From the NCBI GenBank assembly GCA_021772015.1, contig JAETNS010000008.1, positions 62,001 through 126,000 on the forward strand: DNA of 64,000 bases, written 5' to 3'. The notes under the pieces were generated by a model. It made no database searches. It was given only the letters and a program-made list of their open reading frames with translations, and had not been told where the DNA came from. Origin of the DNA: Prevotellaceae bacterium (GTDB lineage Bacteria > Bacteroidota > Bacteroidia > Bacteroidales > Muribaculaceae). This document shows, piece by piece, positions 186 through 55,775 of this stretch (position 1 is its first letter; each line of letters starts with the position of its first letter). Both the position numbers and the translations under genes were made by a program.

Positions 186-255
186 TCACGCGGATTCGCG
201 GGCTTCCAAAGAAGAATTCTCGCAAGAAAGAAATCTCTCGCCGTTTTTTAAAGAA

Positions 256-330
256 AGGTCTCGCAGATTACACAGATTACACAGATGCCATCCGGATGGA
301 ATCTGTGTAATCTGTGTAATCTGCGAGACT
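256..330. repeat. Palindromic repeat, copy 1
   Basis: A 75-bp imperfect palindrome with arms of about 37 nt; one internal mismatch is visible. Each arm carries 2.5 copies of a 9-nt unit (agattacac type). It lies between the convergent plug-like gene and the 529-residue gene. Fragments of the same word (gagactct, ctgtgagagct) continue to about 372. It belongs to the same family as the elements at 4236, 8834, 10844, 13251 and 25769. Confidence 0.9.
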
Positions 331-385
331 CTTCTTTATAAACGAGACTCTTTTTTATAAATCTGTGAGAGCTTTTTATAATAGT

Positions 386-4235: not shown

Positions 4236-4314
4236 AAGTCTCGCATATTACGCCGACTACGCAGAGGTCCTTTCGGTTGAAAAAATCTGTGTAATCCGCG
4301 TAATCCGCGAGACC
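4236..4314. repeat. Palindromic repeat, copy 2 (degenerate)
   Basis: 79 bp of the same family as copy 1. The right arm (aatctgtgtaatccgcgtaa, then ccgcgagacc) is well preserved; the left arm (tctcgcatattacgccgact) has several mismatches, so this copy looks decayed. Confidence 0.75.
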
Positions 4315-8833: not shown

Positions 8834-8972
8834 CAAGACCTCTCATGATACAGGATCTCTCACAGATTACACCGATTACACAGAAGCCATCCGGATGCAA
8901 ATCCGCATAATCATACAATCGGTGTAATCTGTGAGAGATCCTGTATTGATCCTGTCATTATGAGAGGTCTTG
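8834..8972. repeat. Palindromic repeat, copy 3 (nested, longest)
   Basis: 139 bp. The outer arms caagacctctcat and atgagaggtcttg match perfectly over 13 bp, and the inner arms gatctctcacagattacacc and ggtgtaatctgtgagagatc pair perfectly. The core unit is the 9-nt agattacac type shared with copies 1 and 6. Half-site debris (ctgtgagag, ctgcgagagc) continues to about 9016. Confidence 0.9.
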
Positions 8973-10843: not shown

Positions 10844-10975
10844 AGGTCTCGCAGATTACGCGGATTACGCAGATTGCCATCTGGAAGAATTTTTAATCTT
10901 TTTGGACGGTCTGATTAATATTTTTACGATTTATGCCGGATGGCAATCTGCGTAATCCGCGTAATCTGCGAGACT
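10844..10975. repeat. Palindromic repeat, copy 4, upstream of the GxxExxY gene
   Basis: Arms at 10844-10884 and 10936-10975 pair over about 39 nt with one internal mismatch. The spacer is a 51-nt AT-rich loop, longer than in copies 1, 5 and 6. The 9-nt unit is the agattacgc variant and the partner arm has the matching gcgtaatct variant. The repeat ends 22 nt before the ATG of the gene at 10998. Confidence 0.92.
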
Positions 10976-10997
10976 GATCAATACCAATTATAGAGAA

Positions 10998-11375
10998 ATG
11001 GATTTGGATGAAATCACATATAGAATAATCGGCGCGGCATACAAGGTGCACGGTGAACTTGGTCCTGGTCTTCTTGAGAAAATCTATGAGGAGGCATTGG
11101 CATATCAATTGTATGAAGAGGGATTACATGTGGAGAAGCAGATTGCCTTACCTGTGTTTTATCGTGGGCATCGTCTCTCTGTTGAATACAGGCTGGATAT
11201 GCTTGTTGAAGATTCTGTGATTGTGGAATTGAAAAGTGTCTCGGAGATTACCGATCTTTTCAAAAAGCAATTATTGACATATCTTAAAGTCGCAGATAAA
11301 CAAGTAGGTCTGCTTATTAATTTTAATGTCAGAAATTTACAGTGTGGAATAACACGAATCGTCAATGATTATTAA
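10998..11375 (+). CDS. GxxExxY protein, PD-(D/E)XK nuclease fold
   Basis: 125 residues, full length for the GxxExxY family (PDDEXK_3-like). The name motif is seen as GLLEKIY at residues 24-30, after the usual N-terminal IGAAYKVHGELGPG. A nuclease-type triad is present: D67 in YRLDMLV, then E77 and K79 in VELKS. The family is widespread and its biochemical role is not established to my knowledge. The gene is AT-richer than its neighbours. It starts 22 nt after a family palindrome, and a remnant half-site (agattatccgtgtaatct) lies 10 nt after its stop, so gene and repeats may form one unit. No promoter of its own is visible. Confidence 0.9.
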   Translation: MDLDEITYRIIGAAYKVHGELGPGLLEKIYEEALAYQLYEEGLHVEKQIALPVFYRGHRLSVEYRLDMLVEDSVIVELKSVSEITDLFKKQLLTYLKVADKQVGLLINFNVRNLQCGITRIVNDY

Positions 11376-11384
11376 CCCAAGCCC

Positions 11385-11404
11385 CAGATTATCCGTGTAA
11401 TCTA
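11385..11404. repeat. Remnant of the palindromic repeat downstream of the GxxExxY gene
   Basis: agatta and taatct around a 6-nt centre resemble the core 9-nt unit of the palindrome family. It is short, so it could be chance; position directly after the GxxExxY stop makes it notable. Confidence 0.45.
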
Positions 11405-13236: not shown

Positions 13237-13250
13237 CCCTCGATAAGGAA

Positions 13251-13330
13251 AAGGTCTCGCAGATTACGCGGATTACGCAGATTAGCCATTCAGATGGAAT
13301 CTGCGTAATCCGCGTAATCTGCGAGACCTT
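13251..13330. repeat. Palindromic repeat, copy 5 (perfect 33-bp arms)
   Basis: Arms 13251-13283 and 13298-13330 are perfect reverse complements over 33 bp with a 14-nt loop, itself partly paired (ccat/atgg). Each arm has 2.5 copies of the 9-nt agattacgc unit. It lies between the convergent ABC exporter and trxA genes. Confidence 0.95.
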
Positions 13331-13382
13331 TCCAATCAATCTAAGGAGGAGTTGTGGACTCTTCCGAGACTGCAACGAGTCG

Positions 13383-25768: not shown

Positions 25769-25848
25769 AAGGCTCTCACAGATTCCACAGATCACACAGA
25801 TACAATCCGGATTGTATCTGTGTGATCTGTGGAATCTGTGAGAGCCTT
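25769..25848. repeat. Palindromic repeat, copy 6 (perfect 80-bp palindrome)
   Basis: Left arm 25769-25808 is the exact reverse complement of right arm 25809-25848: 40 bp each, no loop and no mismatch. The 9-nt units are the diverged variants agattccac and agatcacac, and the other arm carries the exact complementary changes. Confidence 0.97.
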
Positions 25849-52653: not shown

Positions 52654-52690
52654 GGTTTTTTATGTTGTTTAGGTTGTTGTCAGTGGGTTG

Positions 52691-53920
52691 TTATTGGAAA
52701 ATTCTCACATAGTCGATCTCGTAGGTCTGCGGGAGTGATGCCGGATCAGTGCCCTGCTGTCCTCCCCATCCGCCGCCCCATGCGAGGTTGAGTATCAGGT
52801 AGAAATCCTTGTCGAAAGGCCAGTCAAGCCATGTGGGGGAGGTGCGGACCACGGTGTATCGCCGTCTGCCGTCGACAAACCAGCTGAGTTTGTTTTCCGA
52901 CCATTCGAGTGAATAGATATGGAAATCCTCGCTTGGAGTCGGATTGATAAGCTTTGCCGACATGTGGTGCTTGTTGTCGGTGGTGCTGTTGTGCTGGTAG
53001 GTGTGGGCGGTGAAATGAACCCAGTCGGGGTCATAGCCGACATTCTCCATGATGTCTATCTCGCCGGAACGGGGCCACATGCCATAGTGGCTGTCATTGG
53101 GCATCATCCATATCGCCGGCCATGTCCCCTTGCTTGCGGGGAGCTTCGCGCGGACATCCACGCGTCCGTAGGTGAATTTCACATTGTCTTTTGTATGTAT
53201 GCTGCCGGATGTGTAGGTCGGCTGTGTGCCGTCGGGGAGAGTGAATCCTTCAGTTTCCTTGCGGGCGGTCAGGTAGAGGATCCCGTCGCGTATCTCGCAG
53301 TTTTCCTTTCGGGCGTTTGTGTAATACTGGAGTTCGCCGTTGCGTACATATCCCTCCTCATATCCCCAGTAACGGCTGTCAGGTAATCCGTCAACGTCAA
53401 ACTCGTCGTGGAAAAGCAACCGTGAGTAACCATCGGGGATTTCGATTGTGTCGAAATTGTCGCGGCGGGTGGATATATTGCCGTTGTCATCCACGACGAG
53501 GCTGTATCGGCCTGATCCGTCGGATAGGGAGACCAGCCCGGAAGCTGTTGAGGCGTGTAACGCCGTCGGGGTGTTGCCGATGTTGGCGATGTCGCTGATC
53601 TCCGAGCCATCCGCGCGGATGATTGTGACACCCATCCTGTCGGTTGATCCCCACACGAGATCGTCGTAAGCTCCCAGGGTCGCGCTGCCGGATCCGACAA
53701 GGGTCTGGATATGGCCCAGATGGTCGGTTGTGGCGGTATGGGACTCGGTGTAGAGGATATTGTCATCCGCGTCGATCAGAGACAGTTTCACGGTCACTTG
53801 CTCGTTGCGCGAGGGTGTGCCGTAAATGTCGGTCAGCGATGCCTCATACATCACCGGCTCGGCGTAAGCCGCGAGTATAGCGGAAATTGAAAGTATGGTG
53901 GAAGCGAAAAACGTTTTCAT
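52691..53920 (-). CDS. Glycoside hydrolase family 16 with N-terminal tail-type domain
   Basis: 409 residues with a signal peptide (FFASTILSISAILAAYA). Residues about 22-150 form a domain of the kind found at the start of many Bacteroidetes surface proteins (SLTDIYGTP, YTESHTATTDHLGHIQTLVG, NTPTALHASTASG, VDDNGNIS). The GH16 catalytic domain follows from about 160 with nucleophile and acid/base in EIDIME (287-292), WPAIWMMP before it and a C-terminal YEIDYVRIFQ. Both active-site glutamates are present. Predicted endo-beta-1,3-glucanase or related beta-glucanase. The N-terminal domain is homologous to the stand-alone protein at 54402. Confidence 0.93.
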   Translation of the reverse strand: MKTFFASTILSISAILAAYAEPVMYEASLTDIYGTPSRNEQVTVKLSLIDADDNILYTESHTATTDHLGHIQTLVGSGSATLGAYDDLVWGSTDRMGVTIIRADGSEISDIANIGNTPTALHASTASGLVSLSDGSGRYSLVVDDNGNISTRRDNFDTIEIPDGYSRLLFHDEFDVDGLPDSRYWGYEEGYVRNGELQYYTNARKENCEIRDGILYLTARKETEGFTLPDGTQPTYTSGSIHTKDNVKFTYGRVDVRAKLPASKGTWPAIWMMPNDSHYGMWPRSGEIDIMENVGYDPDWVHFTAHTYQHNSTTDNKHHMSAKLINPTPSEDFHIYSLEWSENKLSWFVDGRRRYTVVRTSPTWLDWPFDKDFYLILNLAWGGGWGGQQGTDPASLPQTYEIDYVRIFQ

Positions 53921-54878: not shown

Positions 54879-54941
54879 GGAATATGGTTTCTGTGGGGTT
54901 TGTTCTTGGTGATGGATGGAATTCATCTGATGTTGTCGCTG

Positions 54942-55775
54942 TTATTGGAAGACACGTACATAATCGATCTCATAGCGTTGGGGCAGCGTCGACACATCGA
55001 CTCCCTCCGAGCCTCCCCATCCTCCGCCGAAAGCGAGATTGAGTATCAGGTAATAGTCGATGTCGAAAGGCCAGGTGGTCCAGTCGCTGTCAGGTTCGCG
55101 GTCGATGGCGTATTGCTCTTTGCCGTCGTAATACCAGGTAAGGCGGTCAGGGGTCCATTTCAAGGCGTAGATATGGAAAGCTCCGACAGCTTCCGGGGCT
55201 TCGGTCTGGTGTGTGCGCTGTGTCCCCCTCATATGGTTGAACCGTTCGGTGTGGGCCGAGAAATGTATCTTGCCCGGATCATACCCGACATGTTCGAGTA
55301 TGTCGATTTCTCCCGACCGGGGCCATGAGCCGTAGCTGCTCTCCTGGGGCATCATCCAGATCGCGGGCCATGTGCCGAGCGAGGCCGGAAGCTTGGCGCG
55401 GACTTCGACGTAGCCGTATTTCCAAGCCTCATGCCCGCTGGTGGTGAGACTGGCTGACGTTATCGGACATAGTTCGCCATTGATTGTCACGCTGTCTGCG
55501 CGGGCTTCTATTATGAGCAGCCCGTCGCGGCAGGTCGCGTTTTGCCCAGGAGTATAATATTGTAGTTCCCCATTGCGGATGTATCCTGTCTCGAAAGTCC
55601 ATTTCTTGGGATCAGGCGCGCCGTCTGTGTCGAATTCGTCGGAAAACACGAGTCTGGAATATCCGTCGGGGATGGGAATGTCATTCTCTGCCGGATCGGC
55701 CATTACCGTGGCGGTGGTGATCGCTACGGCGGCGACGGCGATGGCGGTAAAGATGAATTTAGATGACTTTTTCAT
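54942..55775 (-). CDS. Glycoside hydrolase family 16, laminarinase-like
   Basis: 277 residues from the ATG at 55775, with a signal peptide (FIFTAIAVAAVAITTATVMA). The catalytic motif EIDILE at 156-161 has both active glutamates; TWPAIWMMP precedes it and the end is YEIDYVRVFQ, as in GH16 laminarinases. It is the first gene of the operon, directly downstream of a regulated promoter. It lacks the N-terminal tail-type domain of the second GH16. Cleavage of beta-1,3 or mixed-linkage glucan is a family-level inference. Confidence 0.94.
   Translation of the reverse strand: MKKSSKFIFTAIAVAAVAITTATVMADPAENDIPIPDGYSRLVFSDEFDTDGAPDPKKWTFETGYIRNGELQYYTPGQNATCRDGLLIIEARADSVTINGELCPITSASLTTSGHEAWKYGYVEVRAKLPASLGTWPAIWMMPQESSYGSWPRSGEIDILEHVGYDPGKIHFSAHTERFNHMRGTQRTHQTEAPEAVGAFHIYALKWTPDRLTWYYDGKEQYAIDREPDSDWTTWPFDIDYYLILNLAFGGGWGGSEGVDVSTLPQRYEIDYVRVFQ

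Follow-up and report, generated by a model that had tools for sequence, protein, structure and literature searches.

The window analysed here is a 64,000-nucleotide stretch of DNA (G000:C2:62001-126000) from a 2.86-Mb genome assembled in 48 contigs. At 10998..11375 on its forward strand lies a gene that encodes, from an ATG start and with no internal stop, a protein of 125 residues. The preliminary description had recognised a GxxExxY motif in this protein, and profile searches agree. The protein matches TIGR04256 (GxxExxY) with 148.9 bits over 116 of 116 model positions (cut-off 35) and PF13366 (PDDEXK_3) with 143.2 bits (cut-off 22), passing the curated cut-offs of both families. It is the only GxxExxY copy in this genome at E≤0.001. 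Seven residues (G24, E27, Y30, D67, E77, K79 and Y95) are the same in all 85 aligned sequences, as expected for a nuclease kept active; the alignment comprises the window protein and 84 of the 133 loci remaining from 139 prepared (window locus L047 excluded; five loci with stops or N and one overlong locus skipped). The invariant positions include D67, E77 and K79, previously put forward as a PD-(D/E)XK-like set. An AlphaFold2 model built from the same alignment has a pLDDT of 96.7, and the nearest solved folds found by Foldseek are those of the lambda exonuclease/Cas4 clade of PD-(D/E)XK enzymes (probability 0.99-1.00, TM-score over the query of about 0.5-0.58). The scores are modest, with a best Foldseek E of 3.6e-3, and no PDB chain is related by sequence to the window protein (best E 0.28). 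Judging from the model, the protein is confidently predicted to have a PD-(D/E)XK fold with a D...E-x-K catalytic set and to belong to this superfamily. The dN/dS values of four GxxExxY gene pairs are about 0.04-0.12, indicating purifying selection on the gene.

Of 296 genomes sampled from the window's phylum, 152 have a GxxExxY gene, and as many as 12 copies occur in a single genome. The window gene is AT-rich relative to its neighbours, as had been described (GC of 0.38 versus 0.56 for both of them). A phage or plasmid origin was considered and ruled out: at E≤1e-5 the window protein has no match among 50,697 phage records, and among 72,556 plasmid records (PLSDB) only eight match, of 24.8 kb to 1.6 Mb. 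Earlier reports mention GxxExxY as a gene adjoining a CRISPR RT and as an entry in an algal virus gene list.

Immediately upstream of the gene lies a palindrome at 10846..10974 (inverted repeat I1), the 51-nt arms of which (10846-10896 and 10924-10974) are 88% complementary. The arms contain three tandem 9-nt units (CGCAGATTA CGCGGATTA CGCAGATT) followed by inner arms of the form TGCCATC..GGATGGCA and a long loop, which is AT-rich as originally noted (GC of 0.36 at 10876-10944). Its two half-sites correspond to G000:C2:72850 and 72946. That this palindrome belongs to a family is borne out by 75 matches to its half-site in the genome (at most three mismatches), against none for the reversed control pattern; the distance between its end and the ATG is 23 nt rather than the 22 nt given before. 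Downstream of the gene, a decayed right half-site is found at 11391..11403 (-), an exact 13-nt match to the variant AGATTACACGGAT in enclosing orientation, which is equalled or bettered in score at 3 of 5,688 control positions in the window. This remnant, too, had been reported; it is real, though short, but starts 15 nt past the stop and not 10 nt. Because the right arm is barely recognisable, the inverted-repeat score of the window gene, as defined below, is just 21, which makes this locus a poor example of the arrangement described in the following.

Six palindromes of the family are located within the first 26 kb of the window, five of them without a gene. The gene-less palindrome at 245..342 (I2, 49-nt arms, 92% complementary) is absent at the orthologous sites of two relatives, G097 and G081, and that at 25769..25848 (I4, 40-nt arms, 100%) is likewise absent in both. 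A diverged palindrome at 4238..4313 is absent at the orthologous site in G097 and in a third relative, G148, and has only a degenerate half-site as its counterpart in G081. The palindrome at 8848..8946 (I12, 30-nt arms, 100%), which also has outer nested arms, is absent at the orthologous site in G097, G081 and G148. At the site orthologous to 13250..13331 (I7, 34-nt arms, 100%), G081 has a nested palindrome. When the six window palindromes are taken together and only comparable sites are counted, G097 has a counterpart at one of five, G081 at two of six and G148 at none of three. The window also contains two diverged direct repeats of 135 and 141 nt at 52689-53128 and 54940-55376, which are 73-74% identical, are spaced by about 2.25 kb and perhaps reflect a duplicated gene. 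Across the genome, there are roughly 30 gene-less palindromes; 26 of 29 re-extracted palindromes are intergenic by a crude ORF criterion, and in 28 of 29 the first unit is bordered on its outer side by TCT, as part of GTCTC/CTCTC-like ends. The half-sites are clustered, with 56 of 75 on three of the 48 contigs (C13, C35 and C2) and 22 on the 63-kb contig C35.

To describe the surroundings of GxxExxY genes in general, we took the 300 nt on either side of each gene, aligned the upstream flank locally with the reverse complement of the downstream one, and used the best alignment score as a bracketing score, with a threshold of at least 30. The threshold was reached by 47 of 58 GxxExxY genes, which were picked by HMM score rather than at random and counted without regard to relatedness, versus 4 of 334 control ORFs from twenty 20-kb stretches of the same genomes and the window. 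The 58 genes, 60 loci less two with short flanks, include the near-identical pair L032/L033. Of short control ORFs, one in 104 reached the threshold, and the two control ORFs scoring above 34 are themselves flanked by such palindromes. Within the window's taxonomic family, 35 of 44 genes are bracketed (the window gene being one of the misses), as are 12 of 14 named loci. By record title, these 14 loci come from Bacteroidota, Gamma-, Beta- and Deltaproteobacteria, Chloracidobacterium, Planctomycetota and Opitutae/Verrucomicrobia; only the Betaproteobacterium and one Deltaproteobacterium fall short of the threshold. Of 23 additional copies in the named genomes, where GxxExxY genes alone were scored, 16 are bracketed (30 rows minus seven repeats of named loci at the same contig places). 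For a phylum-wide sample, one gene from close to the top of the HMM ranking was chosen in each of 50 genomes out of the 152 that carry the gene; again counted irrespective of relatedness, 32 of 50 genes versus 4 of 312 control ORFs score at least 30, and 23 of 50 versus 0 of 312 score at least 34. GxxExxY genes are thus bracketed by inverted repeats in Bacteroidota and at least four other phyla, and far more often than control ORFs, in keeping with the flanking beyond chance anticipated in the preliminary description. The association of gene and palindrome proposed there holds, but the gene generally sits between two arms and not merely alongside a palindrome. Inverted repeats around a single gene are a trait shared with DDE insertion sequences and MITEs.

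The arms consist of short tandem units. Among 81 loci, four of which are repeats, the best self-match of the arms falls at lags of 8-10 nt in 65, and the self-match at lags 8, 9 and 10 is 0.35, compared to 0.28-0.29 in shuffled arms. At the outer ends, TTAACC typically precedes units like CACAGAG, CGCAAAG or CACGAAG; a few high-scoring loci, for example L264 and L070, have arms of a different make. In the same 81 loci, the arms are separated from the start codon by a median of 21 nt and from the stop codon by a median of 11 nt, so that a typical element measures about 450 nt and contains little besides gene and arms. Such closeness would also suit regulatory hairpins, that is, terminators or attenuators of the GxxExxY gene that play no role in mobility. 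We find this reading scarcely credible, given the gene-less palindromes found elsewhere by the dozen, the nesting of palindromes described below and the position of the arms on opposite sides of the gene, which is not terminator-like. Classical transposition with target duplication was ruled out, since no direct repeat flanks the arms at 46 of 49 well-defined elements; the other three show repeats of 2-3 nt, about as expected by chance, with the exact element ends uncertain by a few nucleotides. Empty sites in relatives did not reveal the exact insertion ends, the intergenic DNA being too diverged. An intron or other RNA host of the gene was ruled out as well, since at the gathering threshold no intron or other Rfam family matches in the window or in 20 loci. 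The GxxExxY gene is free-standing and intergenic and does not have the intron or intein location that defines homing endonuclease genes.

The preliminary description envisaged one palindrome family for the gene. This part did not hold: the arm letters differ from gene to gene. They do so in step with the protein. For pairs of genes from different genomes (89 genes), arm similarity tracks protein similarity (Mantel rho 0.25, p=0.001), and the same is seen for 32 genes within the window's taxonomic family (rho 0.17, p=0.004). The arms of copies from the same genome are no more alike (0.108, 33 pairs) than those of copies from different genomes (0.098, 3,883 pairs). Among the 33 same-genome pairs alone, the correlation of arms and protein is not significant (rho 0.20, p=0.27). 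The arm letters thus go with the protein and not with the host genome, so that gene and arms behave like a single unit. Linkage by itself could be enough to account for such agreement.

Four letter types were then counted in whole genomes, the counts including the genes' own arms. The expected co-occurrence of gene and palindromes across genomes is indeed observed. In 149 genomes of the window's taxonomic family, the CAGATTA type is present in 10 of 33 genomes with the gene and 2 of 116 without it (Fisher p=4e-6), where gene presence was called at E≤0.001 (31 of the 33 are also over the cut-off). Nine of the 12 positive genomes have just 1-4 matches, and in G146 (four matches) and G015 (one match) these adjoin the gene. 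The matches of several genomes are thus mainly the gene's own arms, and those genomes are uninformative on solo copies. The CACAGAG type is found in 69 of 152 genomes with the gene versus 5 of 144 without it among the 296 genomes of the phylum (p=1e-18). Gene-bearing genomes hold 384 of its 391 matches, compared to six matches in all for the reversed control pattern, and the link persists after stratification by family (Cochran-Mantel-Haenszel p=7e-5, odds ratio 8.8). Two families run against the trend: f7, with 0 of 3 genomes with the gene and 1 of 2 without, and f18, with 0 of 5 and 2 of 59, respectively. One genome has 23 CACAGAG matches and one gene (G336) and another has 13 matches at eight places and two genes (G401), hence many of the matches cannot be gene arms. 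In 83 of these 152 genomes with the gene, the pattern is missing. Element-specific letters would lead one to expect this, but it renders the test one-sided.

The ACAGGAG type is found in 5 of 33 genomes with the gene and 2 of 116 without it (p=0.006; the same 149 genomes), the two gene-less genomes being 85% and 56% complete. Only in G077, G093 and G102 does the resident gene have ACAGGAG arms; the genes detected in G145 (37 sites, genome 76% complete) and G002 (one site) are flanked by arms of different make-up (L074 and L065, respectively). The ACAGGAG and CAGATTA types do not overlap, with CAGATTA sites in 0 of 7 ACAGGAG genomes and ACAGGAG sites in 0 of 12 CAGATTA genomes. The fourth type, taken from the arms of L058 (a gene with a bracketing score of 18), is found beside its own gene in G003 only (three sites), although with three mismatches allowed its pattern also matches four sites in the gene-less G009. 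This type has no solo copies, so not every element has them. Genomes with many palindromes and no gene, the case that had been named as contrary to the proposed link, were seen once at high copy number: G081 has 40 half-sites and no intact gene, but retains a short 3' remnant of one. Besides this main exception, eight gene-less genomes have 1-5 matches each.

Palindrome-rich genomes could in principle owe their palindromes to RAYT/IS200-type HuH enzymes, the link to GxxExxY being secondary. Y1_Tnp (PF01797) matches are present in all 12 palindrome-rich genomes tested, in 11 over the cut-off, and G000 itself has a Y1-like ORF at G000:C35:27858-28100 (L289 7822-8538, -; 26.9 bits, cut-off 23). 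Furthermore, two of six scorable Y1 loci are bracketed, with scores of 226 (G081, L284) and 67 (G102, L287). Nevertheless, the Y1-like ORF of G000 is 7.5 kb away from the nearest family palindrome, the match in G097 stays under the cut-off with 22.5 bits, and none of eight Y1 loci has a two-unit CRCARAG motif within 1.5 kb, a motif that is relevant for five of the eight (the other three are from the window's family). We therefore regard HuH enzymes as a very doubtful source of the palindromes.

The history of the palindrome family can be followed within the genus of the window. Half-sites number 74-75 in G000, 57 in G097 and 40 in G081, and there are none in G148 or in the other six genus members searched. 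A GxxExxY gene is nevertheless present in one of the latter, G063, where its letters are different (L066). G000 and G097 have a GxxExxY gene at the same intergenic site between an antiporter and a transporter gene. At this site, G081 has a palindrome and what appear by eye to be the last eight codons of a G097-type gene, and the stretch from palindrome to gene can be aligned with its G097 counterpart as far as the gap; G148 has neither palindrome nor gene. The GxxExxY proteins of G000 and G097 (L049, G097:C12) share 73% identity, with saturated synonymous divergence (pS 0.89), while the adjacent transporter is 94% identical with a pS of 0.55. This suggests that the gene was replaced at the site. 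Base composition may nevertheless contribute to the synonymous excess, the GC3 being 0.36 for the G000 gene and 0.56 for the G097 gene.

Palindromes of the family are also nested in one another. In G000, all 12 extra half-sites near palindromes are in enclosing orientation, a count that leaves out 3 of the 75 half-sites (overlapping) and a pair of side-by-side palindromes on C27. Nested palindromes are found at G000:C13:66230-66413, C35:53227-53442 and C35:60563-60755, and in G097 three palindrome layers are nested within L177 13085-13600. In addition, the arms change in pairs: in 28 palindromes of G000 (one of 29 was left out, as its right arm is out of register), 266 of 280 variable-position cells are complementary, versus a mean of 224 and a maximum of 244 after shuffling, which does not keep relatedness. 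Selection for pairing, copying from arm to arm or copying of two whole-palindrome types would each yield such paired changes.

These observations bear on the possibility that the palindromes are spread by something else and that GxxExxY is a homing endonuclease that invades their centres, in the way that such enzymes colonise introns, and does not make them. The gene takes the place of the loop of gene-less palindromes, the genes of G000 and G097 look as if replaced, and target-site duplications are lacking at 46 of 49 elements, all of which would fit such a parasite. However, the expansion in the genus is confined to the three gene- or remnant-bearing genomes, with no half-sites in the seven other members, and the difference in GC3 may account for part of the synonymous excess. 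On balance, a homing parasite appears unlikely, although it is the most plausible of the alternatives considered here.

A different protein family has to be taken into account as well. Genes for TIGR02436 four-helix-bundle proteins, the 23S intervening-sequence protein family, are likewise bracketed, in 21 of 30 loci from the window's taxonomic family (L076-L105) at a score of at least 30. Their arms have a 7-nt tandem period, with a self-match of 0.61 at lag 7. TIGR02436 proteins are not nucleases by the evidence here, which makes their bracketing the strongest counterpoint to a nuclease-based mechanism. It would be compatible with GxxExxY and TIGR02436 genes being passengers with unrelated functions, whose palindromes are mobilised or generated by host replication and repair or by another enzyme. 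We judge this improbable, since the repeat architectures of the two families differ (lag 7 versus lags 8-10), GxxExxY genes and palindromes co-occur genome-wide, and the arm letters track the GxxExxY protein. The existence of both groups implies either two convergent systems or a host process making tandem-unit palindromes that several proteins exploit.

Comparison with known systems reveals similarities and differences in each case. The closest parallel is with REP/REPIN elements and their RAYT (TnpA-REP) enzymes. Both systems combine many-copy intergenic palindromes (75 half-sites in G000) with a dedicated nuclease gene that is flanked by a palindrome also occurring alone, and in REP/RAYT systems, as for GxxExxY, the enzyme and the palindrome letters vary together. 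However, RAYT is a Y1 HuH enzyme and GxxExxY is of the PD-(D/E)XK type, and the GxxExxY arms are built of tandem 8-10-nt units with the gene between them. The REP elements described in PMC3733652 have a GTAG or CGTC tag at one end. By contrast, 28 of 29 palindromes of the window family have TCT on the outer side of the first unit in place of a GTAG or CGTC tag. Insertion sequences and MITEs similarly have one gene between inverted repeats together with gene-less derivatives; the GxxExxY element differs in the lack of a transposase fold, in its size of about 450 bp, in its tandem-unit arms and, from DDE elements, in the lack of target-site duplications. PD-(D/E)XK homing endonucleases, of which the I-Ssp6803I type is an example, share the nuclease core and a gene inside a structured DNA host element, but GxxExxY genes are not associated with an intron or other Rfam family in the window or the 20 loci. 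The GxxExxY system therefore lacks traits by which each of these three is defined: enzyme and tag in the case of REP/RAYT, transposase and target duplication for insertion sequences, and an intron setting for homing endonucleases. Finally, the cyanobacterial heptameric repeats (STRR) are short tandem units in intergenic DNA, as are GxxExxY arms; we know of no link of STRR or of the TAACTGA repeats of Beggiatoaceae to a gene family. The latter are also short tandem units in intergenic DNA, according to PMC4853749. The 7-nt period, by contrast, goes here with TIGR02436 and not with GxxExxY.

We favour, with some reservation, the explanation that a GxxExxY gene and its arms constitute a compact chromosomal selfish element, the nuclease of which acts on its own palindrome, and that gene-less palindromes are its non-autonomous derivatives. 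The earlier proposal that the GxxExxY protein acts on the palindrome is thereby partly supported. The element consists of a left arm of about three tandem 8-10-nt units, a gene of about 375 nt and a mirror-image right arm. From the observed association of gene and palindrome, we infer the following course of events. The PD-(D/E)XK nuclease of the element would recognise the palindrome built from the element's own units and, once this folds into a hairpin or cruciform, cut it at or near the centre. Repair of the cut from another copy would then spread the palindrome, with or without the gene, to new places, including the centres of older palindromes, and derivatives such as the roughly 30 gene-less palindromes of G000 would arise in this way. 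Cutting at the centre and copying by repair would lead to genes and younger palindromes at palindrome centres, to the lack of target duplications and to gene-specific letters. Exonucleases and Cas4 act on ends rather than hairpins, which counts against the cutting of hairpins. A search of the open-licence literature found no report of a link between GxxExxY and palindromes, which does not by itself establish that the link is absent from print.

More tentatively, GxxExxY proteins may be the enzymes of an undescribed minimal class of mobile elements, in which a nuclease has co-evolved with its own tandem-unit palindrome and spreads it through cuts at palindrome centres and host repair, with no need of a transposase, HuH enzyme or target duplication; the heptamer palindromes of TIGR02436 genes could then represent a second, independent class. 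The proposed explanation provides a testable function for a protein family that is named merely after its motif and yet is found in about half of the sampled genomes of the phylum, as well as a possible explanation for the short palindromes of tandem units that are dispersed in many bacterial genomes. Should it be true, REP/RAYT would not be the sole system of a palindrome plus its enzyme, and a nuclease of a different fold would have adopted a similar way of life. GxxExxY proteins would then also be new hairpin-specific nucleases, with targets that can be read from the flanks of their genes.
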